Origin: Gemmatimonas sp.
GTDB lineage: Bacteria; Gemmatimonadota; Gemmatimonadetes; Longimicrobiales; Longimicrobiaceae
Direction of reading: 5' to 3'
DNA length: 44,895 nucleotides
Assembly: GCA_009380025.1 (NCBI GenBank)
Contig: WHSP01000020.1
Coordinates: 1 to 44,895 of the forward strand
Position numbers and translations under genes: made by a program. This document shows, piece after piece, positions 4,644-42,263 of the stretch. The notes beneath the pieces were generated by a model that did no database searches, had not been told where the DNA came from, and worked only from the letters and a program-made list of their open reading frames with translations. How positions within the stretch are numbered: the stretch's first letter is position 1; the number at the start of each line of letters is the position of its first letter.

Positions 4644-5870
4644 CTACGTCTCTGCCGCGACGAGGTGCCCGTGGTGGAATCCCAACCTGGGATCGGCATT
4701 CTTGGCGACGGGCAAGTACTCCTGGATGTCCGGCATGCGGACGCGTAGCCGGATTGTGTTGGCGGGGTAGTCGTAGATGGTAATGTGGTTGAGGCCCCGG
4801 TTGGCGGTGAAAAGCAGCGTCTGGTCCGGGCTCAGCTTACAGGCGTGGACGGAGTCGACCAGGGCGAACCGGCTGATGCGAAGGGAACCAAGCAGGTGAT
4901 GGGTCTGGGTGAAGAGCCCGCCCCTCGCGAGCACGTCGTACATCTGGGTGGCGACCTGTCGCCGGTTGGCGAACTGCTCGGAGAGGTTCGGTCGCTCGTC
5001 GATGATCCGGAAGGAGGCGAAGTCGTCGAGGCGAATCATCACGATGGTCTGGCTCGCGCCGTTGCAGAAGATCAGCTCATCGTCGGAGATGGTGAGGTCG
5101 GAGTTGATGTGGGCGGGGATGTCGCGGCCGGCGCTCCAGTGGCGCACCACTTCACCGGTCGCCGCATCGACCTCGAAGGCATACTCACGAAGCCACGCCA
5201 TTCCCCACTCGTGGTAATCACCCCGATCGAGCGGATGCACGCGAAAGGAAACGCCGTAGAAGAGATCGTCCGTTCGGTGGGGGATGGTATGCCAGCAGGT
5301 GGCAGGGAGGTGAACGCGGCGCACTTCGCCGGTGACTGTGTCCCAGATGCCCATCTCTCGCGCCTCGCCATGCCTTCCGCGCGCGGGGTTGTCCATCGCC
5401 CCGAAGACTACGTAGCGACCCGACGCGGTGCGATTCATCCCGTGCACGAGCGCCATCCCATGCGGTGCGATTTTCTCCGGCTTCCGGAGGTCTTTGGCGT
5501 CGAACAGATACAGGTGTGTGCCGACAGCGGTCAGAAACCGCCTTTCATCGAGCCAGACGGCGTGAGTGCTTCCCCGTAGGCTGGTATCGGGGATCTCGAA
5601 GCGAAGGGTCGAGATTCGATCCAACTCCTCGCCGGTTCGCGAATCGTAGACCAGAAGGTGCTGCCCTGCATTGCCGAGAAACCCCAGCGAACCGGTCGGA
5701 TCGACCGTCGTCGCGTGGCCACCACCGACTCCGTCGTGGAATCGGATCTTGTACGCGTAACTGTTGTCGGCGGGATCGAAGAGGAAGATGCAGTTTCCCG
5801 CCCTCCCCTCCAACCCATTGATTCCATTGCCGTCCAGAGCGATGTGGAATGCGTAGGGGTAGCGCTTCAT
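4644..5870 (-). CDS. Beta-propeller protein of unknown function
   Basis: The 408-residue protein is built of repeated beta-strand blades of YVTN/WD-like character: CIFLFDPADNSYAYKIR, HLLVYDSRTGEELDRI, HLYLFDAKDLRKPEKI, MGIWDTVTGEVRRVHL, YAFEVDAATGEVVRHW and HITIYDYPANTIRLRV. This suggests roughly six or seven blades. Histidines are frequent (GGGHATTVDPTGS, PHGMALVHGMNR, CWHTIPHR, FHHGHLV), which could point to a metal-binding or catalytic propeller, but I recognise no catalytic family. No signal peptide is evident at the chosen ATG, so location is uncertain. It is divergent from the small orphan at 5935, leaving 64 bp for two promoters. Confidence 0.75.
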   Translation of the reverse strand: MKRYPYAFHIALDGNGINGLEGRAGNCIFLFDPADNSYAYKIRFHDGVGGGHATTVDPTGSLGFLGNAGQHLLVYDSRTGEELDRISTLRFEIPDTSLRGSTHAVWLDERRFLTAVGTHLYLFDAKDLRKPEKIAPHGMALVHGMNRTASGRYVVFGAMDNPARGRHGEAREMGIWDTVTGEVRRVHLPATCWHTIPHRTDDLFYGVSFRVHPLDRGDYHEWGMAWLREYAFEVDAATGEVVRHWSAGRDIPAHINSDLTISDDELIFCNGASQTIVMIRLDDFASFRIIDERPNLSEQFANRRQVATQMYDVLARGGLFTQTHHLLGSLRISRFALVDSVHACKLSPDQTLLFTANRGLNHITIYDYPANTIRLRVRMPDIQEYLPVAKNADPRLGFHHGHLVAAET

Positions 5871-5934
5871 GGCGTGGCGGGAGATCCCGCCGGCGTGTTT
5901 GCAGTCGGCGACTTCACGGTTCTAGGGGTCGGCG

Positions 5935-6306
5935 GTGGACGAAGGCTTGAACAGGAGCCGTCTATTGTCACTGAATCTATCGGAGGATGAACGGCGCGTC
6001 CTCGGTCTGGCACCTGGGGAGGGAGTCGCGCTCTCCTCTTTCAGTCTCCATCGGCTGCTCGCGTCTCCCGACTATCACCCGAGCCTGGGTGACCCGGGCC
6101 ATGCTCGACACTTTCGGCGCGCCCTCCCCGACGGAACCGGTTTGCATCTCGTCATAGTGGATGGCCGGGCCGAACTGCACCGGGACCTTTTCGATCCCCA
6201 TCGGGGGCCCGTCGCGATGCTGCTCCACGTCGCGACCGACTCTCCCACTCAGGTAATGTCCCTCTTCGCGGCCGGCTGGTCGGTGCTGCACCGTCTGGGG
6301 CGCTGA
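5935..6306 (+). CDS. Hypothetical protein, 123 aa
   Basis: I do not recognise this protein. It starts with GTG at 5935 and runs to a TGA at 6304-6306. The sequence has normal protein character: an N-terminal helix (LSLNLSEDERRVLGL), a middle region rich in His and Asp (SPDYHPSLGDPGHARHF), two strands (GLHLVIVDGRAELHRDLFDP, PVAMLLHVATDS) and a closing helix (MSLFAAGWSVLHRLGR). It has no signal peptide or membrane helix. It is divergent from the beta-propeller gene and could be co-regulated with it. Confidence 0.55.
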   Translation: MDEGLNRSRLLSLNLSEDERRVLGLAPGEGVALSSFSLHRLLASPDYHPSLGDPGHARHFRRALPDGTGLHLVIVDGRAELHRDLFDPHRGPVAMLLHVATDSPTQVMSLFAAGWSVLHRLGR

Positions 6307-6426
6307 CCCGGCCCCGATCGGGCCTGGAACACAGCAGAAGTACGACGGAATCCGCATCATTCCGTCCCCTCGTTTCCGGCTTGGAAACCATGCCGTTGGT
6401 ATCCGACTTTCCGGATGCCAACCAGC

Positions 6427-6990
6427 CTACCCCCTTCGGGCACTGTTACGCGTGTCACCGGAGGCCAGGAACCGGTCGACCGCTGCCCCGAGGTCCTGAA
6501 GGGTCTTGGCAAGGAGCGTCGCCGCTGCATCCTCCAGCCCCGTCTTCCAGCGTCCCTCACCGAGCGGCCCCAGGGTGCCAGGAGCGATCGAGGTAGCGAT
6601 TTCCAGCTGCAGGCGACAGCCACGCCCACCCATTGCACCATGCACGCGCGTGATTCCCGAGCCCACCAGGCCACCGCCCAACATCCGCGATTCCACGCTC
6701 CAGCGGCTTTCGAGCGCCCCATCATGCCACTCCGCGCGTTCGAGCCAGGTGAGCTGATCCCCATCGATCCGCCCTCGCAGGGCATGCGCGACCGACGGCG
6801 CGGCTCGCCACTCGTGCACCGTCTTGATCAGTCCATTTGCGCGGCTCCGTTCCAGCAGCCGGATTTCCTCGATTCCCTCGACGTGTTGGGCGACCGCCGG
6901 GAGGTAGTCTCTGAGGGCCGTCCAGACCCGATCCGGCGGCTGTCGGAGCATGACCATCCGGCGGACGTTGATGCGACGCTCGTTGTTCAT
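6427..6990 (-). CDS. SRPBCC (START-like) ligand-binding protein
   Basis: This 187-residue protein is the last gene of a minus-strand trio; its ATG overlaps the stop of the preceding epimerase gene by 4 bp. The fold is suggested by the usual opening pattern, a basic strand and then MLRQPPDRVWTALRDYLPAVAQHVEGIEEI. Alternating strands follow (GLIKTVHEWRA, QLTWLERAEWHDGALESRWSVESRML, CRLQLEIATSIA), with a long C-terminal helix (AAATLLAKTLQDLGAAVDRFLAS). Members bind hydrophobic ligands or act as polyketide cyclases and lipid carriers. The operon context suggests work on the same substrate as the reductase upstream. The ligand cannot be predicted. Confidence 0.75.
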   Translation of the reverse strand: MNNERRINVRRMVMLRQPPDRVWTALRDYLPAVAQHVEGIEEIRLLERSRANGLIKTVHEWRAAPSVAHALRGRIDGDQLTWLERAEWHDGALESRWSVESRMLGGGLVGSGITRVHGAMGGRGCRLQLEIATSIAPGTLGPLGEGRWKTGLEDAAATLLAKTLQDLGAAVDRFLASGDTRNSARRG

Positions 6991-8051
6991 ACGGGCTGTG
7001 CCGCCCTGGGAGCCACCGGGGAGTCGTCACCCAGACCGCCGGCGAACTGGATCGCGGTCCGAACATCGGGCCGGACGAACTCGGTGCGAAGCAGCCAACG
7101 CAGCGCGCCGCTCAAGGTCGACCGCAGCGGGCTCGAGCGGTAGCCGAGCTCACGAATCCTTCGGTCATCGTACCAGTACCACCGCCCCATCATCTTCACC
7201 TCGTCGCGGGTGAGCGCCGGCTGCACGCCTGCGCCGCGGGAAACGAGCTCGCTCCAGGCAGCGGTCAGGTAGGCAGCCGTATGCGAGGCGGTTACGATTG
7301 GCCCGTAGGTTCGGCAGAGCGCCGAGATCTCGGCGTGCAGCTCAGGCCAACCGACGTTTTCGCCCCCGATGAGGTACGCATGACCGGCCACTCCATTGCG
7401 GGCCAGCAGCATATGGGCCCGCGCCACCTCCTCCGCCGCGACGATGTTGCAGCCGCCCGCGAACGTGGTACGAAACGGATCGTTCAGGTATTTCGCGAGC
7501 GCGCCGTTGCTCTCGGCGAGGCGATAATCCCACGCACCGACGGTGAGGGCAGGGCAGGCCGCGACGAGGTCGACGCCCAGGGTTCGGGCGGTCGCGAAGG
7601 CCATCGAGGTCTGCCGGACCTTTGACATCGCGTATCCGGACGCGTCCTCCAACGTAAGACGGGACGACTCACTGCGGGCCTCCGCCACCGGTGACGAGCC
7701 GAAGATGACCGAAGAAGACGTCACGACGATCCTGCCAACCCCAGCTTCGGCCGCGGTCTCAACAACGTTGCGGGTGCCGTCCACCGCCACCCGGTCCAAT
7801 TCCGTTCGCGACGTCTCGCGATACGAAAAACGAGCAGCGGCGTGGAAGACCAGCTCAACTCCTCCCATGGCCGATGCGACCGACGGGGGATCGAGTACGT
7901 CACCCTGCCGGATGTCGATGGGTAGTCCGATGAGGCCGCGTCGCGGCGGGCCCGGGCGGACCAGTACCCGAACTTCGATCCCCGCGCTCAGGAGCACCCT
8001 CACCAGGTTGGCGCCGACCACACCGGTGGCGCCGGTGACCAGCGCTCTCAT
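6987..8051 (-). CDS. NAD(P)-dependent epimerase/dehydratase (extended SDR)
   Basis: The 354-residue protein opens with the Rossmann signature TGATGVVGANLV (residues 7-18). It continues with the family pattern GDVLDPPSVASAMGGVELVFHAAA, VVTSSSVIFGS and the catalytic Tyr-x-x-x-Lys in SGYAMSKVR. It is closest in character to dihydroflavonol-4-reductase and 3-beta-hydroxysteroid dehydrogenase-like extended SDRs, which reduce or epimerise hydroxyl or keto groups on lipids or isoprenoids using NAD(P)H. Its start overlaps the stop of the DUF362 gene (8048-8051), and its stop overlaps the start of the SRPBCC gene. The three are therefore translationally coupled and probably act in one pathway. Cytoplasmic; substrate unknown. 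Confidence 0.88.
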   Translation of the reverse strand: MRALVTGATGVVGANLVRVLLSAGIEVRVLVRPGPPRRGLIGLPIDIRQGDVLDPPSVASAMGGVELVFHAAARFSYRETSRTELDRVAVDGTRNVVETAAEAGVGRIVVTSSSVIFGSSPVAEARSESSRLTLEDASGYAMSKVRQTSMAFATARTLGVDLVAACPALTVGAWDYRLAESNGALAKYLNDPFRTTFAGGCNIVAAEEVARAHMLLARNGVAGHAYLIGGENVGWPELHAEISALCRTYGPIVTASHTAAYLTAAWSELVSRGAGVQPALTRDEVKMMGRWYWYDDRRIRELGYRSSPLRSTLSGALRWLLRTEFVRPDVRTAIQFAGGLGDDSPVAPRAAQPV

Positions 8052-10351
8052 GGCCAGCCTCCGGATCCGCTGTCCGGGTCCATGCCGAGATGTGCCGCGG
8101 CCCAGTCTGCCCCTGGATCATTGGTGCCACGCGTTCCGGGTCCATTCGCCCACGCAGCATCGCCGCCGGCCTCCGGGAGCCCGAGAGCCGCCAGGTCCCT
8201 TCCCACGGCCCGGCCCAGCTCCTTGAGGAAAACCGATGGGGTCAGCGGATCGTCCGTGTGACCGGCGTTGAATAAAGAGGTGCTGACGAAGGCGGGGACC
8301 CGCTGGCCGGCGAAGTGCGCGAATCCCGCCTCATCCACGAACACAGGCTCCACTGAGATCTTCGCTCCCGGCTGAGGTGTCACCCCGCTCGCAGGCGACC
8401 AACCGAATGTGCGTGCGAGCAGGGCGAACGCTCCGGCGAGCACTGCCTGTAGCTCCGATCGTTCCGTTTCGGTGCCGGGTGGGGAAAGATCCTTGCCGAT
8501 GCGGTACGGCCGTCCCTCGTGGGCCGCTCGCAGGTTGGCCAACGTCCCATCGAAGAACTTCGCGTAGGCATCCGCCACCAGTTCTCGATGGACCGCCGGC
8601 CAATTCTCGACCCGCAGCGCCGCGATGGCCGTCGGGAGCCGGAATCGCTGCCGCGCGAAGATCTGGACTTCTACCTGATCCGCCGACGTTCTCACGAAGC
8701 TCACGAGACCATCGTCCGAATCCGCTGACCCGTTCGGGCTCCGAATCGTTCGCCACCACAGATCTTGCCGATCAGTACCGTAGGCGATTCGCTCGACCTT
8801 CTCCACGTCGATCAGCTCGCCTCCCACCGCCCCGATCCAGTTCGGCTGGGGTAGGTAGACGTTCCGTTCGGCCTGCCGTTGGGGTCTCCCGAAGCCGTCC
8901 GCATCCACGACCACCCAGGAGCCACCCAGGTAGTCGTTCATGTAACGGATTCCGGCCGAGATGTCGACCCGAGACGTGAACGCCTCGAAACTGATCGGCA
9001 GGACTCGGGAAGCGGCGAAGTACGTGTGACCGCCGACGGTGCGGATGCGGAAGCCCCGAGCGTCCGGGGGTGCGCCGTCGAGGGCTCGACGCTGCGCCTC
9101 GACGATCGGGCGCGTGGTGTCGAAGTCCTTCGTCCGAAGGCGGTCGACGTCGATCGTCAAAGGCGCAACCGAGCGCGCGACCTCGCCTTTCGTGAGGTTG
9201 GTCACGAGAGCGAACCGGGCCGATGCCAGGGTGTCCAGGACACGGGCCAACAGGGAGGTGATGGTCTCTCGGACGGAAGGGTCGGTGACACGCTCGAGCT
9301 GGGACCGGACGCTCGCAGAGAGCTGGTCGATCACGACGTCGCGGAAGGGAAAGAGTTCGCGGTCGACCGGCTGCAGAATCGCCCGAGTCAGCGAGTCGAG
9401 TGCGGGCCAGCGTGCTCGACCGCGCACGGCCGCCCGGAGCGTAGGCGAGGGGTTCGTCCACCCTTCCCAGGGCGCCGCATCCCCAACCAACTCCCAATCG
9501 CGCGGGAGCCCCACCATCTCTCCTGCGAGCCGATTCAACGGCGAGACCTCCGGATCGGCACCCATTTTCAGAGCCGCCAGCCAGTCGGCGAGGAGGCAGT
9601 TCGGCGATGCGATGATCGTTTCCGCCGAGATCGGTGTCGGTTCCCTCGCCCCTGAGCTGCCGTGGTTACCCTGCACAGCGTCGATGAGGGCAAAGTGGGG
9701 AGGGACCGTTCGGAGGAGGTTGAGCGCTCGGTCCTCGGGGCTCCAGCGAGACGCCGTCGAGTCGCTCGGGATGAGGCCGACCAGGTTCGCGAGCGCTAGC
9801 GAATAGCCCCACTCATCATCTGTCTTCGCCTTCGCGAACGAGATCCGGACGTCCGCTCGCACCCAGGCGCGATTGACGAGCAGCGCTCCTCCCTCGTCCC
9901 AGCCATGGAGCGCGACCGGCTGGTGGTCGTCACCGTTGAAGACGACCTCGTATGGCTGTCCCTCTGGCGCTTCGAAGCGGTACCCTACCAGGTCCGGAAC
10001 GCACATCCCGTCCCGATTGTGCAGCCAGTGGTCTGGCCGATTGCGGCCATCACAAACGGTCACCCGCGCGAAGCCGCGCCGGCGGAGCGTCACGATGAGG
10101 GCTTCCACGAGCGCCGGGTCGGTCCCGGTGGGAGAGCCGGCCGCGAAGATGTCGAGGTCTGGTTTGATGGCGATCGCCAGATCGCGCCTGGCTACCCGCC
10201 GGGCTGCCCTCCTCGACTCCAGGACCTTCCACAATCGCCCCGCTTCGACGGCCTCCTGTAGGAGCGCTTCTGGAGGGCCGCCGATGGCCCGAACGGCAGC
10301 GACGGGGACTACGCCCCGCGACGCGGAACGGGCGTTTCTGGAAACGGTCAT
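8048..10351 (-). CDS. Large DUF362-domain protein
   Basis: The 767-residue protein leads the minus-strand trio. The N-terminal 320 residues look like a DUF362 domain: AIAIKPDLDIFAAGSPTGTD, an ALVEALIVTLRRRGFARVTVCDG helix-strand unit, RADVRISFAKAKTDDEWG, and HFALIDAVQGNHGSSG, then ASPNCLLADWLAALKMGADP. DUF362 proteins are often tied to iron-sulphur or redox chemistry, but no ferredoxin Cys cluster is visible here; Cys is rare. The remaining 450 residues (strands around GFRIRTVGGHTYFAASRVLP and a C-terminal piece with EPVFVDEAGFAHFAGQRVPAF) are not assigned. It is much longer than a stand-alone DUF362 protein, so it is probably a fusion. Start ATG at 10351; the upstream 338-bp gap is shared with the divergent cluster. 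Confidence 0.72.
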   Translation of the reverse strand: MTVSRNARSASRGVVPVAAVRAIGGPPEALLQEAVEAGRLWKVLESRRAARRVARRDLAIAIKPDLDIFAAGSPTGTDPALVEALIVTLRRRGFARVTVCDGRNRPDHWLHNRDGMCVPDLVGYRFEAPEGQPYEVVFNGDDHQPVALHGWDEGGALLVNRAWVRADVRISFAKAKTDDEWGYSLALANLVGLIPSDSTASRWSPEDRALNLLRTVPPHFALIDAVQGNHGSSGAREPTPISAETIIASPNCLLADWLAALKMGADPEVSPLNRLAGEMVGLPRDWELVGDAAPWEGWTNPSPTLRAAVRGRARWPALDSLTRAILQPVDRELFPFRDVVIDQLSASVRSQLERVTDPSVRETITSLLARVLDTLASARFALVTNLTKGEVARSVAPLTIDVDRLRTKDFDTTRPIVEAQRRALDGAPPDARGFRIRTVGGHTYFAASRVLPISFEAFTSRVDISAGIRYMNDYLGGSWVVVDADGFGRPQRQAERNVYLPQPNWIGAVGGELIDVEKVERIAYGTDRQDLWWRTIRSPNGSADSDDGLVSFVRTSADQVEVQIFARQRFRLPTAIAALRVENWPAVHRELVADAYAKFFDGTLANLRAAHEGRPYRIGKDLSPPGTETERSELQAVLAGAFALLARTFGWSPASGVTPQPGAKISVEPVFVDEAGFAHFAGQRVPAFVSTSLFNAGHTDDPLTPSVFLKELGRAVGRDLAALGLPEAGGDAAWANGPGTRGTNDPGADWAAAHLGMDPDSGSGGWP

Positions 10352-10542
10352 CTACACGGGAATCGGAGTTACGCGGATGCGTCGCCGGTGGCGGGCTCCA
10401 GCAGCTCGACTCATTACATAAGCCCGAGGCCCACCTCCAGCAAGCGTGTCGAAAAGCATGCGCGGATCCGGCTTCACCTTCCTGTCGACCCGAGTTCTCC
10501 CCGCCGCGCGCCTGACGGTCTCGTGCCGACTTGGGTCTCGAG

Positions 10543-10626
10543 GGGACGGCCACCGCACACGACGGGACGGCCACCGCACACGACGGGACGGCCACCGCAC
10601 ACGACGGGACGGCCACTGCTCTTGAC
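10543..10626. repeat. Tandem repeat, four 21-bp units
   Basis: Four head-to-tail 21-bp units start at 10543, 10564, 10585 and 10606. The first three are identical (GGGACGGCCACCGCACACGAC) up to their edges; the fourth differs in its second half. In the frame of the downstream gene they would encode GTATAHD repeats. They lie in the 338-bp gap between the divergent DUF362 operon and the four-gene cluster, about 60 bp before the preferred start at 10690. No spacers separate them, so this is not a CRISPR array. The rest of the gap (10352-10542) holds no convincing gene. Confidence 0.85.
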
Positions 10627-10689: not shown

Positions 10690-11160
10690 GTGAGTGTCAC
10701 CATTCCGCAGCCCTTCCAGACGAGCGTCCAGACCGCTCAGCCGTTTCGAACCAAGGTTGAAGGACTCACGATCCCGGATACATACAGCCTCGCGATCACC
10801 GAAATTCCGCCGATCAGCTTCTCGGTCGAGTCCCTCCCGACGATCCGGCTCAACGTCGAGAATCTGCCGCCGGTTCACTTTCAGGTGGACCCCATCGAAA
10901 TCCGTTTGACGGAGATCCCCTCCGTCCGGACCCATCTACCGGCTGACTTCGCGATTGGTTTCTCCCTCCTGGGGATGGAGCTCGGAACCATTCGGCTCTG
11001 TGGTGAGGGCCAGATCATCACCGAGCCCTATCGCCCCAATCCTTGCGAGACGTGTAGTCTGACGTCTTTCCAGGGGACTTCAACGTCCACGGGTACGATC
11101 GGGGAGCCCGTGCCCGGCATCGCCGCGCCATTGGACGCGGCGGCAGACCGTCCGGAGTAG
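10690..11160 (+). CDS. Unrecognised protein with short beta-strand repeats (cluster gene 1)
   Basis: The preferred start is GTG at 10690, with GAGGA five bases upstream, giving 156 residues. A longer frame starts at TTG 10531 and would add the GTATAHD repeats. The middle of the protein is a ladder of about ten-residue units with alternating hydrophobics and a Pro turn: YSLAITEIPPI, SFSVESLPTI, RLNVENLPPV, HFQVDPIEI, RLTEIPSV. A conserved-looking segment follows (ADFAIGFSLLGMELGTIRLCGEGQ), then a Cys pair (NPCETC) and a low-complexity tail. There is no signal peptide. I do not recognise the family; the ladder suggests a stacked beta structure. It lies 3 bp from the next gene, so it belongs to the 10.69-13.13 kb cluster. 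Confidence 0.65.
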   Translation: MSVTIPQPFQTSVQTAQPFRTKVEGLTIPDTYSLAITEIPPISFSVESLPTIRLNVENLPPVHFQVDPIEIRLTEIPSVRTHLPADFAIGFSLLGMELGTIRLCGEGQIITEPYRPNPCETCSLTSFQGTSTSTGTIGEPVPGIAAPLDAAADRPE

Positions 11161-11163
11161 GCC

Positions 11164-11976
11164 ATGGCCCGCTCCGGCACCGACGTACCGGTCCGCTTTC
11201 GCGGTGTCCCTTCGGCTCTTGCGGCGGTGGTCGTTGCACTCCCCGATCCGCGTGAGGACATGACGGCAGCGATCCGTATCGCCGGCCCGAAGGATCCGCT
11301 GACCGAAGTGGCCGTGCAGACGGACTTCGATCCCCGCATCCTCCGGACGATGCTACCCAACGACGTTCCTCCAGGTTCGTACGAGGGCTCCCTTCGGTTC
11401 GGCGAGAACGAGCGGCCGATCGTCGTCGAGATCGATCCGGCCCCGCAGCTTCGCGTCGTGCCTGAGCAGCTTCGCGTGCGAGCGCATCCCGGGGACCTCG
11501 TAGGCACCGACCTCACGATGTTGAACCTGGGCAACGTGCCGGTCATGCTTCGCGGAGTCCAGGCGATCGGGATCTTCATGAGCGGTGGGATCGAGCGAGC
11601 GCTGCGACGCGCCTACGTCGAGGAGCTCGCCGAAGGTCAGCGACGTATGGACGTGATCGCCGAAAGTCTCGCCGACGCCCACGGCGGCCTGCTGAAGATG
11701 AAGATCGAGGAGGGTGCCGGCGAGATCGATCCCGGAGAGGCTCGCGAGCTTCACGTCGTCCTGCACGTGCCCTCCGACCTCGAGCCGGGGGCGCACTACG
11801 GAGGAAACTGGGAGTTGCCGGGTCTCGTGTACCCGATCGCCCTCGAGGTCGACGGGGAGCCCCGCGACGACGAGACCCTCGAGGGTGAGCCGCCGAAGAA
11901 GGTCGTCGGGTCCCGCCCGCCCCAGAGGCGGACCGGTCAGGCCAAAGCGTCCAGGAAGAGTGGTAGCCGCGAATAG
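11164..11976 (+). CDS. Unrecognised protein with Ig-like beta-sandwich segments (cluster gene 2)
   Basis: The 270-residue protein starts with ATG three bases after cluster gene 1. Strand-rich segments resemble Ig-like or filamin-type repeats: VPPGSYEGSLRFGENERPIVVEI, LRVVPEQLRVRAHPGDLVGTDLTMLNLGNVPVML, and GEARELHVVLHVPSDLEPGAHYGGNWELPGLVYPIALEV. A central helix carries many charged residues (RALRRAYVEELAEGQRRMDVIAESLADAHGG). The C-terminus is a Lys/Arg/Ser-rich tail (GQAKASRKSGSRE) of the sort that can bind nucleic acid or a charged surface. No signal peptide or membrane helix is visible, so the protein should be cytoplasmic, which is unusual for Ig-like domains. Function unknown. Confidence 0.68.
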   Translation: MARSGTDVPVRFRGVPSALAAVVVALPDPREDMTAAIRIAGPKDPLTEVAVQTDFDPRILRTMLPNDVPPGSYEGSLRFGENERPIVVEIDPAPQLRVVPEQLRVRAHPGDLVGTDLTMLNLGNVPVMLRGVQAIGIFMSGGIERALRRAYVEELAEGQRRMDVIAESLADAHGGLLKMKIEEGAGEIDPGEARELHVVLHVPSDLEPGAHYGGNWELPGLVYPIALEVDGEPRDDETLEGEPPKKVVGSRPPQRRTGQAKASRKSGSRE

Positions 11977-12018
11977 CCGCGCAAGCGCGTTCTCAAGCAC
12001 GACTGGAGTGAACCCCGA

Positions 12019-12636
12019 ATGCCACCGATCAGCATCGAATCACCGTTCGGCGACGTCCCCGAAGCGCTACTCGGATTGTTGCGAGCGCAGGCCAAGTGGG
12101 GCCAGGAGTACCTCGAAGCGGTCACGGGTACGAAGCTCCCCACCGTGACGGATCCGGTGCGGGCGCTGCAGAGCGCCCTACCCACGCCAGTCTGTCACGT
12201 GCCGCTCCCCTGCTGGATGCCGCAGTCGCTCGGTGATCTGAGGAGCTTCGTCGACAAGTGCGGAAAGGCCTGCGTTCGCCTGCTCGTCACGAACTGCGAT
12301 CGAGTTGAACGAACCGTTCAGGTCCGCGCCGAAGGCGTCCAGGGAGTCGAAGTGAACCCGCCTTCTCTCCACCTCGGGCCGATGCAGCGGGGAACCGCCG
12401 AGGTATCGTTGGAAGTGCCAGAGAGGACTGAAAAAGGCACGAGCTTAGAGGTGCTCGTCTGGGTCGATGGCTGCAAACAGCATTACCTCCGCTGGACGAT
12501 CCACGTCACTCCCGCGGGATTCGACTCCTGCCACGAGATTCCCGTCGACGATTGCCCCGACTACCGTCACCACTGGTACGACCATTTCTATTGCCCCCGT
12601 CCTTGTCCCTCCGGCCGGAGCTTTGCCCGTGGCTGA
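12019..12636 (+). CDS. Unrecognised protein: N-terminal helix, Ig-like domain, Cys/His tail (cluster gene 3)
   Basis: This 205-residue protein starts at ATG 12019 with GGAG ten bases upstream. Residues 13-40 form an amphipathic helix (PEALLGLLRAQAKWGQEYLEAVTG) with a phasin-like look. An Ig-like domain follows (about 85-165): CVRLLVTNCDRVERTVQVRAEG, VNPPSLHLGPMQRGTAEVSLEVPE, TSLEVLVWVDG. It ends in a Cys/His-rich tail (CHEIPVDDCPDYRHHWYDHF, then C-x3-C). Ten or so Cys are spread over the protein, which could bind metal. It overlaps the next gene by 8 bp, which supports coupled translation. Family unknown. Confidence 0.65.
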   Translation: MPPISIESPFGDVPEALLGLLRAQAKWGQEYLEAVTGTKLPTVTDPVRALQSALPTPVCHVPLPCWMPQSLGDLRSFVDKCGKACVRLLVTNCDRVERTVQVRAEGVQGVEVNPPSLHLGPMQRGTAEVSLEVPERTEKGTSLEVLVWVDGCKQHYLRWTIHVTPAGFDSCHEIPVDDCPDYRHHWYDHFYCPRPCPSGRSFARG

Positions 12637-13126
12637 CCGAACCCCCTGGGAAGACGTCGTTCGCCGCGCGTACGACGCGAATTTCCGCTACTGGGAAGCC
12701 GTCGGCCAGGCTACCTCCGACTACGCAAAGACCGTTTCCCGGCTCTGGACCGAGCTACCGATCTCGTGGACTCCGGGGCGCCGAGAGCCTTCGGAGAGCA
12801 GCGCTCCGACGAGCCCGGCGGTGGTTCTGGAAGGCGTGGCCGGGTCCGAGGCCGCTGCAGCCGTGATGCTCACGAACGATCTGGGGCGCGAGGTGGAGGC
12901 CGCTGTCGTCGCGACGCCTCTGGTCGGGCCGGCAGGTGAGTCGGCCGGAGTGGCGCTCCGGACCGAGCCGGAAGTCGTCCGACTTTCGCCCGGTGGTCGC
13001 ACCCCGGTTACCGTCAGGGTCGACCTCAGTGAAAAGCTTGCTCCAGCTACGGACTACCGGGCCGAGGTCAACGTTCCCGGACTTTCGCATCGTGGCGTCC
13101 CCGTAATCGTCCGCCGACTCGCTTGA
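12629..13126 (+). CDS. Unrecognised protein: phasin-like helix plus Ig-like domain (cluster gene 4)
   Basis: The start is GTG 12629, with GGAG eight bases upstream and an 8-bp overlap with cluster gene 3. The open frame extends further upstream but only as an overlap with that gene. The 165-residue product has an N-terminal helix (WEDVVRRAYDANFRYWEAV, continuing into TSDYAKTVSRLW) that resembles the helices of phasins, the coat proteins of storage granules. A beta-sandwich follows, with PAVVLEGVAGSEAAAAVML and then VRLSPGGRTPVTVRVDL, LAPATDYRAEVNVPGL and VPVIVRRLA. Its last strands match the pattern of cluster gene 2 (L-x-PG/A-x-x-Y, then PGL and a basic strand), so the two probably share a domain. 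No export signal. Confidence 0.65.
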   Translation: MADRTPWEDVVRRAYDANFRYWEAVGQATSDYAKTVSRLWTELPISWTPGRREPSESSAPTSPAVVLEGVAGSEAAAAVMLTNDLGREVEAAVVATPLVGPAGESAGVALRTEPEVVRLSPGGRTPVTVRVDLSEKLAPATDYRAEVNVPGLSHRGVPVIVRRLA

Positions 13127-13268: not shown

Positions 13269-13304
13269 GGGCGCCTCCGAATCGCTCGGGGGCGCCCCTT
13301 TTTA
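13269..13304 (+). terminator. Rho-independent terminator of the four-gene cluster
   Basis: Positions 13269-13280 and 13286-13297 form a 12-bp stem (outer GGGCGCC/GGCGCCC, inner TCCGA/TCGGG) with a 5-nt loop. It is followed by CTTTTTAT. It lies 143 bp after the stop of cluster gene 4. Confidence 0.85.
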
Positions 13305-13328: not shown

Positions 13329-13568
13329 TCAGACCGCTGCCGGTGCCATCACTCCGAGAACCCGATCGAGAGCCATCACATGACTGCACGTCTGATGGCC
13401 TCTGAAATAACCGCAGTCACACTTCCAGTGGCCGTCCCAGAACTCGACTGCATGCTTGGAGTGGTTGCCGTCGAATTCGACGCGGAGATCTTTGAAGTGG
13501 ATGCGTTCGGGTTGGTCGGCGTAGCTCTTGGCTTTCTGGATTTTGTTGATCATCCCGGAATCCAGCAT
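13329..13568 (-). CDS. Small SWIM-type zinc-finger protein
   Basis: The 79-residue protein carries the SWIM pattern C-x-C-xn-C-x-H at C50, C52, C61 and H63 (KCDCGYFRGHQTCSH). This small zinc-binding motif is known for protein or DNA contacts. The start is the ATG whose complement ends at 13568: a near-perfect AAGGAGG lies five bases upstream. A GTG 15 bases earlier opens the same frame but sits over that ribosome-binding site. Before the finger are charged strands (HFKDLRVEFDGNHSKHAVEFWDGHW). Small stand-alone SWIM proteins of this kind are widespread but uncharacterised. A minus-strand hairpin with a U-tract lies just upstream of the ribosome-binding site, which may attenuate its expression. 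Confidence 0.85.
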   Translation of the reverse strand: MLDSGMINKIQKAKSYADQPERIHFKDLRVEFDGNHSKHAVEFWDGHWKCDCGYFRGHQTCSHVMALDRVLGVMAPAAV

Positions 13569-13589
13569 AGGATCCTCCTTCACCGGTAG

Positions 13590-13629
13590 AAGGAAAAAAT
13601 AAACGCCCCCGTAACGCTATACGGGGGCG
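13590..13629 (-). terminator. Hairpin with U-tract upstream of the SWIM gene
   Basis: Read on the minus strand, the 10-bp stem CGCCCCCGTA/TACGGGGGCG (13604-13613 with 13620-13629) is followed by TTTATTTTTTCC. It would end transcripts arriving from the acidic-protein gene, or act as an attenuator in the SWIM gene leader, since only 10 bases separate it from the ribosome-binding site. Confidence 0.75.
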
Positions 13630-13790
13630 CTAGATGACGCATCATCAGAGAAGCCGGTCTCGCGGCTCAGTGGAACGGATCCTGTCACAAGTTTCCTTGC
13701 CTCATGAAGGAAGCGACGATCCCTGATCGGAGGATACCCGGGGCCGGGTGAGAAGTCAAGCGGGCGCTCGGCCCAGCCCTCGAACGGGCC

Positions 13791-32372: not shown

Positions 32373-35084
32373 GTGATGCTCGTCAATTCGATCGTCCGCC
32401 CTTCATCTCGTGATCACGAGCTCCTGCGTAGCCTCGCACAGCGGATCGACCCCGCAGATTCGGCTGGTCACAACAACCTCGGGGTCCTGTACTTCAACAA
32501 GGGGATGGTGGCAGAGTCCGTGGAGGCGTTCCACCGTGCGCTGGAGATCGATCCGGCGATGCACGTTGCGCAGCGGAATCTCGAGATTGCGTACCTTTCG
32601 ACAGGATTCTATGACGAGCTAACGCAAAACCTGGCGCGACGGCTTCGGGTGGCACCGGAGGATTTCGAGGCTCGGTGGCGTCTGGCGCAGGCACTTCGCT
32701 ATACCGGCCACCTGGAAGAAGCTGCCGCTGAGCTCCGCCGTCTGTTGGCGTCCACGCCCACCAGCCTCCGCTTGCTCCTCGAGCTGGGGCGCGTCGAGAA
32801 GGAGGCCGGCCGGTTCAGGGAGGCGCTTCGGGCGTACGAGCGGGCCCGGCGGGTGGACCCGCGCAGTGCGATCTTGCACCTCCACCTTGGGGAGCTCCAC
32901 TACCACCAGGGAAACAGCGAGGAGGCTCGGCGGGCGCTGCTGTCGGCAACGGAGGTGGAGCCTCGCTTGGGAGAGGCGTGGCACATCCTATCGTTCGTAC
33001 TGGGGGACCTGGGGGATGCTGAACGCGCTTCCGCCGCTTTCCGGCGGGCGCGCGAGCTCAGGCCCGAGTTGGGCGAGACCGAGAGCGGTCTTTCCATCGA
33101 CCGGAACAGCGTTGCCCGATATGGGGAGTTGCTCGGGGATCGAGCGCCGCGTCCGTCCTCCGTGCGCGGACGCTTCCTCGGCCACTACAATCTCGGCCTC
33201 GCGTACCGGCAAGGAGGCTTGTACGACGAGGCATTGCAGGAGTTCGCTCGCTCACGAGAGTCGGGCGAGGATCCCTTCCTCGCCGAGCAGGCGACGGCTG
33301 AGGTGCTGCTCAGCGCGGGTAAGAATGGTTCCGCAGCGAAACGGTATCGGAAGCTCCTGGACGGTGCTCCGGACAGCCCGAAGCTCTGGAATGAGCTCGG
33401 AGTCGCCCTCCATCGACTGGGGGAGCTCGATGAGGCGACCGAGTGCTACCGTCGGGCGCTTCGGGAGGACGATCGCTACCTGCTGGCCGCCAACAACCTC
33501 GGCGTCGCGCGGATTGACGCCGGCGATCGCTCGGACAGCCGTCACTGGTTCGAGAGAGCCGTCGTCGCCGAGGGTGACGGATTTGCTCAACCCCTGTGCA
33601 ATCTCGGTCTGCTCTCGCTGGGGGAGAAGCGGCTGCGAGAGTCGCTGATGTGGTACCGCCGGTGCGTCGAGGGCGATGCGCTGTCGCCGGCGGGATGGAC
33701 GGGGGTCGGCGTTATCCTGAGCGAAACCGATCAGCTCGGGGAGGCGCGCCAGGCGCTGGCACGGGCCATCGAGATCGAGCCCGAGTCGGCCGAAGCGCGA
33801 TACCGGCTGGCGTTCGTGCTCAATCGGCTTGGCGATCGGGAGGGGTCGCTTCGGGAAACCCGACAAGCGCTCTCGTTGGATCCCTACTTCACCACACCTG
33901 GCTATCGCCTCGCGATCGAGTTGCAGTTCGAACACGCCGAGGTCGTCGCCCCGTCGCTCTCGACGGCGACACGCGTGCCCTCGGGTGAGTCCGTGATCGA
34001 TTTCTCGCCGGGCGAGTTCGAGCTTGCGGGCATCTTCGAGAAGCTGCGCGGAGACGATGCTGCTGTAACGGAGGCGGACGACGGATACCGGCTTGCGCAG
34101 GACTACCTGAGCAAAGGAATGCTGGGGCAGGCGCTCGCGGAGATCCGGCGGGTCGTGCTGGCGGGCGGTGATCCGGTCGACGCGGCCCTGCTCGGTGGGG
34201 AAGTCTTTCTACGACAGCGGCTCGAAGGTGAAGCGCTCGAGCGCTTCGAAACCGCGCTCGCACGCCTCGAAGGGACTCTCTGGGGCGAGAAGCACGAAAG
34301 GGCGTGGCTGGGTAGAGGTTGGTCGCTCGTGGAGCTCGGGCAGGCAGAGGGGGCGGGACAGGCGGCAATGACGGTTCGGGACCGGAACCCATCATCTACC
34401 GAGGCCATTCGGCTGCATGCTGAGGCGCTGTTGCTGATGGGCCGGAGCGGCCAGTCTGCCGATGAGTTCGCGCGTCTGGCCGAGGTCGACGAACCGAACG
34501 CCTCGACCTTGATGCGGCTGGGGGCTGCGGCAACAGCCGCCGGCCAGGTGGACCGGGCTGCGGTAGCGTACGAACGCGCCATCGAGCTGGACTCGAACCT
34601 GCTCGCCGCTCGGGTCGAGCTCGGTGCTCTGCTGCTCGGGGAGGGAGATTTCGACGCTGCCGCGGACCACGCCCGCGCTACCCTCGAGGCCCTTCCAGGC
34701 TATTCGGAGGCCGCGCTGCTGCTCGCGAACGCGGAACACGCGCGGGGGGAATCGGACGCCGGCGTGGACGTCCTGGTCGAGCTGCTCGAGATGGACCTCT
34801 ACCATCTCCCGGCGCTACACCGGCTCGGCGAGATCTTGCTGGAATCGGGGAACGCCGCCGACGCCGCCACCGCGTTTCGCAGAGTGCTCCGTTTCGATCC
34901 GGGATCAGGACAGGCGTGGCTACGGCTGGGCGACGCCCTCGAGCACTCCGCCGCCTCCCAGGAGGCCGCGAAATGCTGGGAGCGGGCGGCTGACCTCGCA
35001 CCCGCGGACCAGCTCGAACGGCGCGCGATGACCCGTCCGAGCCGCCACGTGCCGGGGGGAGCCGTGGTGCTGCCGAACATCTGA
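32373..35084 (+). CDS. Large TPR-repeat protein
   Basis: The 903-residue protein is almost entirely tetratricopeptide repeats. Well-formed units include GHNNLGVLYFNKGMVAESVEAFHRALEIDP, AILHLHLGELHYHQGNSEEARRALL, KLWNELGVALHRLGELDEATECYRRAL, ARVELGALLLGEGDFDAAADHARATLEALP and a final AWLRLGDALEHSAASQEAAKCWERAADLAP; I estimate at least fifteen. A non-TPR break lies around residues 520-560 (SLSTATRVPSGESVIDFSPGEFELAGIFEKL). It has no signal peptide, so it is a cytoplasmic scaffold. GTG 32373 and ATG 32376 are both possible starts. It lies six bases after the receiver gene and three before the first DUF4388 gene. Confidence 0.9.
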   Translation: MMLVNSIVRPSSRDHELLRSLAQRIDPADSAGHNNLGVLYFNKGMVAESVEAFHRALEIDPAMHVAQRNLEIAYLSTGFYDELTQNLARRLRVAPEDFEARWRLAQALRYTGHLEEAAAELRRLLASTPTSLRLLLELGRVEKEAGRFREALRAYERARRVDPRSAILHLHLGELHYHQGNSEEARRALLSATEVEPRLGEAWHILSFVLGDLGDAERASAAFRRARELRPELGETESGLSIDRNSVARYGELLGDRAPRPSSVRGRFLGHYNLGLAYRQGGLYDEALQEFARSRESGEDPFLAEQATAEVLLSAGKNGSAAKRYRKLLDGAPDSPKLWNELGVALHRLGELDEATECYRRALREDDRYLLAANNLGVARIDAGDRSDSRHWFERAVVAEGDGFAQPLCNLGLLSLGEKRLRESLMWYRRCVEGDALSPAGWTGVGVILSETDQLGEARQALARAIEIEPESAEARYRLAFVLNRLGDREGSLRETRQALSLDPYFTTPGYRLAIELQFEHAEVVAPSLSTATRVPSGESVIDFSPGEFELAGIFEKLRGDDAAVTEADDGYRLAQDYLSKGMLGQALAEIRRVVLAGGDPVDAALLGGEVFLRQRLEGEALERFETALARLEGTLWGEKHERAWLGRGWSLVELGQAEGAGQAAMTVRDRNPSSTEAIRLHAEALLLMGRSGQSADEFARLAEVDEPNASTLMRLGAAATAAGQVDRAAVAYERAIELDSNLLAARVELGALLLGEGDFDAAADHARATLEALPGYSEAALLLANAEHARGESDAGVDVLVELLEMDLYHLPALHRLGEILLESGNAADAATAFRRVLRFDPGSGQAWLRLGDALEHSAASQEAAKCWERAADLAPADQLERRAMTRPSRHVPGGAVVLPNI

Positions 35085-35087
35085 GCG

Positions 35088-36227
35088 ATGCCGATCGAGG
35101 GGCCGATCCAGGATCTCGCGCTGAGCGATCTGCTCCAGCTCCTCTTCCTGTCTCGGCGAACCGGCTGCCTCGTCGTCAGGGCCAGCGGGCGGGAGGCTGA
35201 GCTACGATTGCGCGAGGGTGCCCTCGTCGGTGCGACGAGCGGTGGCCCGGAGCTTCGTCTCGGCCGGCTCTTCGTTCAGTCGGGCCGTGCCACGGACGCC
35301 CAGGTTCGAGACGGGTTGGAGCTTCAGCGAAAGGCACCGGCACGGTTGCTCGGTCAGATCATGGTCGACGCGGGTTTCGTCCGGCCAGCGGAAGTGGAGC
35401 GTCAACTCCGCTTCCAGATCGAAGAGACAGTGTTCGACCTGTTGCGGGTCGAGGAAGGACACCTGCACTTCGAGGAGGTCGGAAGTCAGCCGCGGCACGG
35501 GATCGAGGTCGAGCTGGGCACCGATTCGGTTCTCATGGACGCCACCCGGCGCCTGGACGAGTTCGCCGAGGTCCTGCAGGAAAGCGCTCACGGCGATCCG
35601 CTGCCCCGGCTGGCTTTCCCGGACGGCAGCCTCCCTCCGACGCCCCTTCACCTGGGGGCGCTGGAGTGGGAGGTGCTCGGTATGGTCGATGGAGAACGAA
35701 GCCTGCGGCAGATCGCACGGGCATTGGGACAGGGCGAGCTCCAGGTTGCGCGGGCGCTCTACGCACTGGCCGAGGCCGGCGTCGTCGAGGTGGGTGCCCG
35801 AGCGGTGGAGGGTAGGGAGGGGGGCGACGATGCGGCCTCCCTGTATCGCGAGATCGATCGAGCCATCCGGGAGGGCAGGAGCGAGCAGGCCGGCACGCTC
35901 CTCCAATCGGTCCGCTCTCTGAGTCCGGCGCGTGGGATCGCGGCCGAACAGAGGTTGATGGAGGGCCGTGTTCTGGCGCTGGCCGAAGATTGGGGGGCGG
36001 CCGCGTCGGCCCTCGAGGACGCCGTCCGCATCGATCCGCTCCTGGCCGAGGCCTACTTTCATCTGGCCCGGGTTGCGGTACGGTGCGGTGAGCTGGCGCG
36101 GGCCGAGTCGGCTCTACGAGTTTATCAGCGACTGAACGATCCCTCGGAGCCCCGGCGCGAATCCGCCGAGCGGATGGTACGATCTCTGGAGGAGCTTCGG
36201 AAATCGATGAGCGACGCCGAACCATGA
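35088..36227 (+). CDS. DUF4388 (PATAN) protein with winged-helix-like and TPR segments
   Basis: The 379-residue protein begins with a DUF4388/PATAN domain: PIEGPIQDLALSDLLQLLFLSRRTGCLVVR, then LRLREGALVGATSGG, LGRLFVQSGRATDAQVRDGL, and IEETVFDLLRVEEGHLHFEE (about 1-140). A winged-helix-like unit follows (VLGMVDGERSLRQIARALGQGELQVARALYALAEAGVVEVG, about 200-245), then TPR-like repeats. PATAN domains are found in bacterial signalling proteins, often beside receivers and Ras-like GTPases, and are thought to be protein-interaction modules. It overlaps the following gene by 4 bp and shares its N-terminal plan with the product of 38937-40568. Confidence 0.88.
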   Translation: MPIEGPIQDLALSDLLQLLFLSRRTGCLVVRASGREAELRLREGALVGATSGGPELRLGRLFVQSGRATDAQVRDGLELQRKAPARLLGQIMVDAGFVRPAEVERQLRFQIEETVFDLLRVEEGHLHFEEVGSQPRHGIEVELGTDSVLMDATRRLDEFAEVLQESAHGDPLPRLAFPDGSLPPTPLHLGALEWEVLGMVDGERSLRQIARALGQGELQVARALYALAEAGVVEVGARAVEGREGGDDAASLYREIDRAIREGRSEQAGTLLQSVRSLSPARGIAAEQRLMEGRVLALAEDWGAAASALEDAVRIDPLLAEAYFHLARVAVRCGELARAESALRVYQRLNDPSEPRRESAERMVRSLEELRKSMSDAEP

Positions 36228-37150
36228 TCCACGAATCCAACCACCGGGTTCGCCACTGGCAGGAAGAGGTGGCGCGAGACCCGGGCGCCGACGCCTTCGT
36301 TCCCCTCGCCGACCTCTACCGGGCGCAGGGACGACTGGACGTCGCCCTGCGGGTATGCTGGAGAGGATTGGAGAGGAACCCGAACCACGTCGAAGGGCAC
36401 TCCCTGCTCGGGAGCATCTACCGGGACTCCGACGAGCCGGAAAGAGCCTACGACGAGTGGGACATCGCCCTCGGACTCGAACCGTCCCACCTTCCGTCGC
36501 GCCGGGCTATGGGCTTTCTCTGTCTCGAGCGGGGTCAGATGGCCGAAGCCGAGGTCCATCTCCGGAGGGCACTCGACATCGAGCCAGACGACCCACGCCT
36601 CATTCGGGCGCTCGCCCGTGCGGAATCACGCGGCGAATCCCGTACGCCGACGACGGCCTATTGGGAGCGCACTTCCCACATCCTGAACCCGGCGGTTGCC
36701 CGGTTCGTTCGGGAGAGCCGGGTCCGCTTCGTCCTCCTGGTCGACCCGACCGGCCGGCTCGTGGCGCAACACGGCATGACCCACGATCTCGACATCGCCG
36801 CCTTCGCATCCCTGGCGGCAGGCATTCAAGCCGCTTCGGGGGGGGTCGCACGTTTGCTTGGACAGAACGGCTTTTCCCAGCTCTACCAGGGAAAGGGAGA
36901 GCGTCAGATCTTCCTCGGCGAGGTGCGCTTCCCTCACGGCGCCATCCTGCTGCTCACGGTCTTCGGCGCGACCTCTCCGGTCGGGCTGGTTCGTGCGCTC
37001 TTCCGTGAGCTCGCTGACGATCTCGCCGCCGCCAATTGGCCGCAGCCCTTCGACCGGCCGTCGGCATCAGGTCTCGATTCGGAGCTCGCGCGAGGGGTCG
37101 ATCGGTTCCGCTTGCCGACCGGCCGAACCAGCCCAGCAGAACTCGAGTAG
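36224..37150 (+). CDS. TPR-roadblock/LC7 protein, probable MglB-like GTPase partner
   Basis: The 308-residue protein has TPR repeats in residues 20-135 (ADLYRAQGRLDVALRVCWRGLERNPNHVEGHSLLGSIYRDSDEPERAYDEWDIALGLEP and the next two). A roadblock/LC7 domain follows, about 170-270: RFVLLVDPTGRLVAQHGMTHDLDIAAFASLAAGIQAASGGVARLLG, FSQLYQGKGERQIFLGEV, AILLLTVFGATSPVGLVRALFRE. Roadblock proteins such as MglB stimulate and position Ras-like GTPases. This gene ends one base before the MglA-like GTPase gene, so it is the likely GAP or co-factor. A TPR fused to the roadblock domain is unlike the short classical MglB. Confidence 0.86.
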   Translation: MIHESNHRVRHWQEEVARDPGADAFVPLADLYRAQGRLDVALRVCWRGLERNPNHVEGHSLLGSIYRDSDEPERAYDEWDIALGLEPSHLPSRRAMGFLCLERGQMAEAEVHLRRALDIEPDDPRLIRALARAESRGESRTPTTAYWERTSHILNPAVARFVRESRVRFVLLVDPTGRLVAQHGMTHDLDIAAFASLAAGIQAASGGVARLLGQNGFSQLYQGKGERQIFLGEVRFPHGAILLLTVFGATSPVGLVRALFRELADDLAAANWPQPFDRPSASGLDSELARGVDRFRLPTGRTSPAELE

Positions 37151-37151
37151 G

Positions 37152-37775
37152 ATGTCGCTGGTCAATTACGCCGCCCGCGAGATCGTCTCCAAGATCGTCT
37201 ACTACGGCCCCGCACGGTCCGGAAAGACGACGAACCTGCACTACATTCACGCCAGGGTTCCCGAGCCGCGCCGTGGGCCCATCGTGTCGCTCGCAACGGA
37301 GGGCGACCGTACCCTCTTCTTCGACTACCTTCCCCTCGACCTCGGCAGGGTCTCCGGGTTCCGAACCCGCATCCAGCTCTATACCGTCCCGGGACAGATC
37401 TATTACGATTCGACTCGTCGCCTCGTTCTCCAGTCCGCCGACGGCATCGTCTTCGTGGCCGACAGCCGTCCGGACCGTCAGGATGAGAACCTCGAGAGCT
37501 TCCGGAACCTGCAGAGCAACCTCCTGGAGGAAGGGATCGATCCGAAGTCGGTTCCGCTCTGCTTCCAGTACAACAAGCGCGATCTTCCGCAGGTACTGCC
37601 CTCGATGCAGCTGGAAGCGGATCTCAATTACCGGGGTCTGCGATCGTTCCCAGCATCGGCATTGACCGGCGAGGGCGTCTTCGACACCCTGGAAGCGATC
37701 ATGGGCCTCGTCCTCACCGGTCTGGCCCAACAGTTCGAGGAGACGACGGAGGCGGTCGGGAGAACGAATGCGTGA
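37152..37775 (+). CDS. mglA: MglA-like Ras-family GTPase
   Basis: The 207-residue small GTPase has Walker A GPARSGKT (residues 19-26), the switch II region YTVPGQ (77-82), NKRD (141-144) and the base-binding SALTGEG. Between them is LVLQSADGIVFVADSRPDRQDENLESFRNL, the typical MglA G3 surroundings. MglA controls cell polarity and motility in Myxococcus and related bacteria. The start is ATG 37152, one base after the roadblock gene; the frame is open further upstream over that gene only. It overlaps the DnaA-like gene by 8 bp. A Pro at position 80, as in MglA proteins, separates it from eukaryotic Ras. Confidence 0.94.
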   Translation: MSLVNYAAREIVSKIVYYGPARSGKTTNLHYIHARVPEPRRGPIVSLATEGDRTLFFDYLPLDLGRVSGFRTRIQLYTVPGQIYYDSTRRLVLQSADGIVFVADSRPDRQDENLESFRNLQSNLLEEGIDPKSVPLCFQYNKRDLPQVLPSMQLEADLNYRGLRSFPASALTGEGVFDTLEAIMGLVLTGLAQQFEETTEAVGRTNA

Positions 37776-38937
37776 CGACGGGTTCACCTTCGAAACCTTC
37801 TCGGTCGGCACGTCCAACCAGCTCGCAGTAACCGCTGCCCGGCGGGTCTCCGAATCCCCCGGTACGATCTACAACCCACTGGTGATCTGCGGTCCGACCG
37901 GAACGGGCAAGTCGCACCTGCTGAAGGCGATTGCGAGCGCCATCCAACGCCTGGAGCCAGACCGCTCGGTTCACGTCGACAGCGCCGAATCGATCGCGGA
38001 TCGGGTGACGACCGGGATCGTGGAGAACGGCCTCGGGCCCCTCCGCGACGCCCTCGGCGGGTTCGACGTGCTGCTACTGGACGACCTGGACGAGCTCGCG
38101 GGATTCGGGCGGACGCAGTCGGAGCTCGGTCGGATCGTACGCCGACTCGTCGACGCCCGGCGTCAGGTCGTGCTCGCTTCGGCCCTGCCGCCAAGTTCAC
38201 TCGACGGCTTCGATCGGGATCTGCTGGAACTGTTGAATAGTGGGCTCGTCGCGGAGTTGGACCAGCCTGACCTGCAGACAAGACGTGGAGTCGTCGTCCA
38301 TCTCCTGGCACGTTCAGGGACATCGTGGGCTCACGAGCTGATCGATGCCCTGGCGTCCTATGCTCTGGACGCCGGCGAGCTCGAGAGCCGGATCGCGACG
38401 CTGGTCGACTTTCAGCGGGAGCGGGATCGGCCGCTCAACTCGGACGATATCGATCGACATTGTCGAGGTGTCCGTCGGGATCACGGGGGTGCAAACGAGT
38501 TCGGTTCGTTTCTGGAGGATGTCGGACGGGCGGTTGCGGCCGTCGTCGCGGCGGAGCCGTGGCGCCGCCGAATCGGGGAGGCAATCCTTCGCTGGGAAGG
38601 CGAAGGGGTTCGAACCACCCGCCTGGACGCCGCGCTCGAGGCCGATTCCTCACCGGACGTCGAGACCCTCCTCGAAGACTTCACGCGGGACGCCGCGAGG
38701 CTTCTCGAGATCCGTGGTCAGCTGGGCTCATGCGGCGCTCGACTGGACGATCCTGACGACCTCGAGACGGCTGAGAGCTTGTTAACGGATGTCGTCGCGG
38801 CTTCCGCAGCTGACGATGAGGACGGCGACCCCCGATCCCTCAATCCCCCTTCGATCGACCCCTTCTTCCTCGATGCGGATCGCGTGCTGTTGACGGTCAC
38901 GGACGTCGAAGGCCGCCTGGTGGAGGAGCCGGGCTAA
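37768..38937 (+). CDS. DnaA-like AAA+ protein lacking arginine finger and DNA-binding domain
   Basis: The 389-residue protein starts like DnaA domain III (FTFETFSVGTSNQLAVTAA, then NPLVICGPTGTGKSHLLKAI). Walker A is G42-S49 and Walker B is in FDVLLLDDLDELAG. Sensor I (QVVLASALPPSSL) and the PDLQTRRGVVVHLL segment follow. The stretch where DnaA carries its arginine finger (normally R-x-R-S-R-F) reads LLELLNSGLVAEL, so the finger is absent. DnaA's C-terminal DNA-binding domain is absent too; instead come a helical region and an acidic tail (AASAADDEDGDPRSL). It is not the replication initiator. Its place between the GTPase and the second PATAN gene suggests a structural or regulatory ATP-binding role. 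Confidence 0.85.
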   Translation: MRDDGFTFETFSVGTSNQLAVTAARRVSESPGTIYNPLVICGPTGTGKSHLLKAIASAIQRLEPDRSVHVDSAESIADRVTTGIVENGLGPLRDALGGFDVLLLDDLDELAGFGRTQSELGRIVRRLVDARRQVVLASALPPSSLDGFDRDLLELLNSGLVAELDQPDLQTRRGVVVHLLARSGTSWAHELIDALASYALDAGELESRIATLVDFQRERDRPLNSDDIDRHCRGVRRDHGGANEFGSFLEDVGRAVAAVVAAEPWRRRIGEAILRWEGEGVRTTRLDAALEADSSPDVETLLEDFTRDAARLLEIRGQLGSCGARLDDPDDLETAESLLTDVVAASAADDEDGDPRSLNPPSIDPFFLDADRVLLTVTDVEGRLVEEPG

Positions 38938-42200: not shown

Positions 42201-42263
42201 ATGGCTACCCTCACGGACCGCTCGATCGCCGGCCTGAAACCCAATGGCAAACGCTTCGAAGTC
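42201..42263 (+). pseudogene. N-terminal integrase fragment in a different frame
   Basis: ATG 42201 opens a frame reading MATLTDRSIAGLKPNGKRFEV, a typical start of DUF4102-type phage integrases. It continues logically into the frame of the next entry (WDDLVPGLHVRVS). Removing one T at 42264 or 42265 would join the two frames; the original start is probably 42201. Confidence 0.7.

Follow-up and report, generated by a model that had tools for sequence, protein, structure and literature searches.

Among the closest described systems are the proteins of polyhydroxyalkanoate (PHA) granules, or carbonosomes: phasins, PhaF, and PhaM. These proteins have a helical, partly amphipathic surface-binding segment and a K/A/P-rich basic tail, and several small partners are encoded beside the genes of the core-making enzymes (PMC5658603). 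In PhaF, the tail binds DNA and the helix binds the granule (PMC5658603). The cassette described here, found in a window of 44,895 nucleotides (the whole stretch of Gemmatimonas sp. DNA that was analyzed), resembles these systems in its basic tails, its small partner genes beside those of enzymes, and a helical, partly amphipathic segment that may bind a surface, but it has neither a phasin Pfam match nor a PHA synthase, Ig-like domains are fused into its proteins, and its enzymes are isoprenoid enzymes.

Family 2 encapsulin clusters with a polyprenyl transferase cargo are similar in that an isoprenoid synthase gene lies beside a structural protein gene. Unlike those clusters, the four core genes have no shell match, the cassette in its common form comprises seven genes, and its polyprenyl synthase scores far under the cargo cut-off. 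The partner enzymes are clear members of the geranylgeranyl reductase family (TIGR02032) and the polyprenyl synthetases (PF00348), but they form distinct, strongly conserved subfamilies with ~53–72% identity between phyla. A search of the open-access literature returned no description of the cassette, which is undescribed as far as that literature, Pfam, and NCBIfam are concerned.

The four genes

Positions 10690 to 13126 hold four consecutive genes on the forward strand, separated by gaps of 3 and 42 bases and then joined by an 8-base overlap, as the sequence-only reading had described them. Gene 1 (10690–11160) encodes a strand-rich protein of 156 aa with the conserved end CGEgQIITEPYxPNPCExC, and gene 2 (11164–11976) a protein of 270 aa whose C-terminal Ig-like domain is common to genes 2, 3, and 4. 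Gene 3 (12019–12636) encodes 205 aa, with a helix at residues 13–36, an Ig-like sandwich at ~62–178, and a conserved Cys/His tail, HHWYDHFYCxRPC; gene 4 (12629–13126) encodes 165 aa, with a phasin-like N-terminal helix followed by an Ig-like domain. The GTG at 10690 is likely the start of gene 1, because the homologue in locus L016 opens with MSVSIPQPF at its ATG. Compared with L016, each of the four genes has most of its substitutions at the third position of codons and is therefore coding and under constraint; this bias, together with homologues in 16 other genomes, shows that genes 1–4 are real genes.

None of the four proteins exceeded a Pfam or NCBIfam cut-off, in agreement with the earlier statement that they could not be placed; gene 3 gave sub-threshold Ig-like matches in this profile search (e.g., FixG_C, E 6e-4). 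The absence of export signals was also borne out, since no conserved signal peptide was found in any cassette protein and the moderately hydrophobic N-terminal stretch of gene 2 occurs in the window copy alone, not in its homologues. The terminator claimed to close the cluster corresponds to a hairpin at 13269–13297 (+), 143 bases 3′ of gene 4, with a 12-pair stem followed by CTTTTT; the region holds five such sites in total against 2.5 (sd 2.0) in shuffles, which is not unusual.

Other features were observed in the window. Just 3′ of the cassette, a small SWIM-zinc-finger-like protein (PF04434, below cut-off) is encoded at 13329–13583 (−), and a second terminator-like hairpin lies at 13602–13631 (−). 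The stretch 32373–40568 contains mutually similar genes (32373, 35088, 36224, 38937), including a TPR protein, and has the appearance of a regulatory or motility-type cluster; a protein with a DnaA-ATPase domain is encoded within it at 37768–38937. Near the contig end, a phage-type tyrosine integrase with an Arm DNA-binding domain (42244–43380) may mark the boundary of a mobile element.

Distribution and conservation

A first search, among relatives of the genome to which the window belongs, located genes 2 and 3 next to each other in one genome of the same order but a different family; its DNA carries all four, arranged as in the window. Two further cassettes came from 395 genomes sampled from the phylum, and a scan for gene 3 motifs, with one genome per species, gave 15 loci. 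The records of these loci are from Gemmatimonadetes, Deltaproteobacteria, Acidobacteriota (five), Gamma- and Betaproteobacteria, Chloroflexi, Dormiibacter, Neomarinimicrobiota, and Planctomycetia. Merging of duplicates left 17 genomes from about eight phyla, in which gene 3 is present by construction, since the scan needed its motifs; the presence of genes 1, 2, and 4 does not follow from the search. Because most of the 17 were assembled from metagenomes, the taxon names given by depositors carry some risk.

Genes 1, 2, 3, and 4 were consecutive, on one strand and in the same order, in all 14 loci with enough sequence; in the remaining three of the 17 the cassette was cut by contig ends. The homologues were always adjacent; the scattering that the sequence-only reading had named as evidence against itself was not seen. 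Genes 3 and 4 have the same 8-base overlap in eight genomes and one of 4 bases in three. The cassette is rare: of 195 genomes related to the Pyrinomonadaceae one, a single genome has a full-length gene 2. In the tree of genes 1–4, the Planctomycetia copy lay within a Gemmatimonadota group and the Gammaproteobacteria copy was joined to that of Neomarinimicrobiota; these placements suggest that the cassette has been transferred horizontally.

A search of plasmids found no cassette. A viral origin was considered and rejected: viral contigs contained no relative of gene 3, and such structural similarity as there was to viral models was generic. Gene 2 also gave weak matches to histidine-kinase loci (L003–L006) and to long Acidobacteriota proteins, which we attributed to chance or to generic Ig similarity.

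Domains and conserved residues

Profile comparison with hhalign gave E 8e-9 for genes 3 and 4, 3e-6 for genes 2 and 4, and 1.4e-4 for genes 2 and 3, in each case over an Ig-like domain. The terminal strand pattern noticed earlier in genes 2 and 4 thus reflects true homology, and the three genes share a domain, an outcome in favor of the first reading, which the lack of a common fold among them would have refuted. The N-terminal part of gene 2 is probably a second Ig-like domain. Gene 1 showed no detectable relatedness to gene 3 in profile comparison, and PDB profile searches that started from genes 1 and 2 and from the helical partner PHS (see below) yielded nothing useful.

The AlphaFold2 model of gene 3 consists of the helix at 13–36 and a sandwich with pLDDT ~92–98. 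Its Foldseek matches are PapD-type chaperones, MSP, and HYDIN domains, and as modeled it is a PapD-like Ig sandwich. The likeness to PapD-like/MSP/ASH proteins (VAP-A, HYDIN, pilus chaperones) is one of fold (Foldseek E 1e-4 to 1e-6); identity is 7–19%, the TM-score relative to the query does not exceed 0.39, and the gene context is different. The gene 1 model is confident only for the hairpin 79–111 and of mostly low confidence elsewhere.

Residues C104 and C122 of gene 1 and H185, H189, C192, and C196 of gene 3 are invariant, which suggests a metal or disulfide site. The conserved cysteines would also fit an oxidizing, extracytoplasmic place, and this counts against an intracellular body.

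Partner genes in most genomes

The cassette adjoins three further genes in 11 of the 17 genomes: a small helical phasin-like protein of ~115–150 aa (PHS), a polyprenyl diphosphate synthase (PPS), and a geranylgeranyl-reductase-type flavoprotein (GGR). A genome-wide search found PHS, this PPS subfamily, and this GGR in exactly those 11 genomes and in none of the other six, so that in the genomes tested both enzyme subfamilies occur solely with the cassette. The order and strands of the three genes vary by genome and the set is constant; in the Planctomycetia genome it is split by a contig break within the reductase, and the two ends fit. No neighbor beyond the families listed here recurred in at least three of these loci. 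The distances of genes 1–4 and of the three partners were correlated with a Mantel r of 0.91, which shows that the genes are transmitted as a unit; it does not independently prove that they interact.

PPS is a polyprenyl synthetase by profile (PF00348, 95 bits), with both DDxxD motifs, DDILD and DDxxDV, in 10 of 10 subfamily copies. GGR belongs to TIGR02032 (202.7 bits; cut-off 158.8); the ten complete copies all have YGWxFP (conserved YxWxFP), and KVCGD is invariant in their alignment.

PHS also bears on the proposal that genes 3 and 4 both open with a phasin-like amphipathic helix before the Ig-like sandwich. The two helices are alike in position and amphipathicity, but only that of gene 4 is detectably related to the PHS helix, whose pattern A..A..FW..W...A..F matches the gene 4 N-terminus with E 9e-5 (hhalign; controls 0.15 and 0.11). 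The mean amphipathic moment was moderately above shuffles for gene 3 (z 1.9) and gene 4 (z 2.0), and two regions of PHS had mean z values of 1.2 and 2.5. A Pfam search for phasin families with genes 1–4 and PHS returned no match at E up to 0.1–1.

Basic tails were present in 15 of 17 gene 4 sequences and were less marked in some PHS; most of these proteins have a K/R/A/P-rich end. A basic, K/A/P-rich C-terminus of the PhaF/PhaM type is thus found in most gene 4 homologues and many PHS. The gene 4 protein of the window has no such tail, and the window copy of gene 2 has a basic one.

Other gene settings

PHS, PPS, and GGR are all three absent from the window genome, where a divergent four-gene set takes their place upstream of gene 1. 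All on the reverse strand, its members are a DUF362-domain protein of 767 aa (8048–10351), an SDR related to HpnA and SdmB and below both curated cut-offs (6987–8051), an SRPBCC/lipid-transport-like protein (6427–6990), whose homologue in L024 matches PF10604 weakly (E 2e-4), and a protein of 408 aa, propeller-like by eye (4644–5870). All four lie beside genes 3–4 in the Betaproteobacteria locus L024, and L016 has the DUF362 protein beside genes 1–4. Among the 395 genomes of the phylum, this protein occurs in the window's own only. A nearly perfect 21-bp tandem repeat of 3.7 copies, CGACGGGACGGCCACCGCACA, occupies 10539–10616, in the gap that separates gene 1 from the divergent DUF362 gene; it is possibly regulatory, and its core is not present in L016.

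A third setting is that of L014 and L022, where the neighbors are a conventional polyprenyl synthase and a protein, with no Pfam match, that we take to be CrtC/AttH-like. In L022, an extra gene 4-like protein (5933–6478) directly follows the polyprenyl synthase, ~2.2 kb upstream of the four-gene block, and the CrtC/AttH-like protein lies between the two. Small proteins at L022:8063–8587 and L014:6705–7157 look like SCP2-type lipid carriers by eye and had no Pfam match.

Possible function of the cassette

The sequence-only reading proposed that the proteins may coat an intracellular body or surface in the manner of phasins. The analogy gained from the separate PHS protein of 11 cassettes, with its basic tail and a helix related to that of gene 4; the polyhydroxyalkanoate that it implies is likely not the content. 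The content is probably an isoprenoid, since the partners that stay constant are a polyprenyl synthase and an enzyme of the geranylgeranyl reductase type. Our tentative reading, to which we give somewhat less than an even chance, is that the products of genes 1–4 are structural components of a body or particle inside the cell that consists of a hydrophobic isoprenoid or a related lipid. We favor this coat and anchor role because export signals are absent, the helices are phasin-like, basic tails are common, and the enzymes of isoprenoid chains are constant; the lipid-transport-like and HpnA-like proteins among the window-type partners also count for it.

From the cassette, its domains, its linkage, and its enzyme families we infer such a body, its product, and the binding of helices and DNA as follows. 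In the common form, PPS would make an isoprenoid chain and the GGR-type enzyme would saturate it. PHS and gene 4 would bind the hydrophobic surface through their amphipathic helices, and in most genomes the basic tails would tether the body to the nucleoid, like PhaF and PhaM on PHA granules. An outer layer may arise from strand contacts of the Ig-like domains encoded by genes 2, 3, and 4, and the gene 1 protein, together with the Cys/His tail of the gene 3 protein, would serve as a conserved element for docking or for a metal or disulfide site. The window version would have the DUF362/SDR/lipid-transport/propeller set in place of the cargo enzymes. Several points count against the body: the amphipathic moments exceed those of shuffles only moderately (mean z about 2), the window gene 4 lacks the basic tail, the window genome lacks PHS, PPS, and GGR, PHS has no phasin family match, and Ig-like domains serve many uses.

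The main rival, which we consider unlikely but well worth weighing, is a protein scaffold or metabolon that has no lipid core and holds isoprenoid-processing enzymes, like enzyme-loaded compartments, and that may swap enzyme sets. In its favor, three alternative enzyme sets lie beside the same four genes, and in NCBIfam PPS scores best against the polyprenyl transferase cargo of family 2 encapsulins, at 79.5 of 450 bits and thus far below the cut-off. However, neither Pfam nor NCBIfam gave a match to an encapsulin or other shell family in the four genes, and a scaffold would not need basic tails or amphipathic helices.

Distinctly less probable is a cell-envelope layer, in which Ig-like, Cys-containing proteins exported by an unknown route would cover a membrane with saturated isoprenoid lipids from PPS and GGR. 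Ig-like folds and conserved Cys pairs are common extracellularly, gene 3 has a fold like that of PapD-type chaperones, and GGR-type enzymes reduce membrane lipids and quinones; yet a conserved signal peptide or anchor is lacking in every protein, and the tails are basic and DNA-binding-like. An ordinary PHA granule coat, which the phasin-like helices and PhaF-like tails would recall, is very improbable and already largely refuted, since PHA synthase is absent from 16 of the 17 genomes (PhaC_N, PF07167, in one; no class III PhaC over the TIGR01836 cut-off) and phasin-family matches are lacking.

Returning to the isoprenoid body, a fuller version is possible, though less likely than not: a horizontally spread, self-contained cassette for a new kind of inclusion, in which saturated polyisoprenoid would be surrounded by a dedicated Ig-like coat and held by nucleoid anchors, with interchangeable enzyme sets that include the undescribed one of the window. 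At seven genes and roughly 6 kb, the cassette is compact and amenable to testing in a laboratory host. Our results showed that five protein families absent from the family libraries searched strictly co-occur with isoprenoid chain synthesis and saturation in about eight phyla. If these proteins coat an isoprenoid body, it would be an overlooked bacterial storage or reaction compartment.
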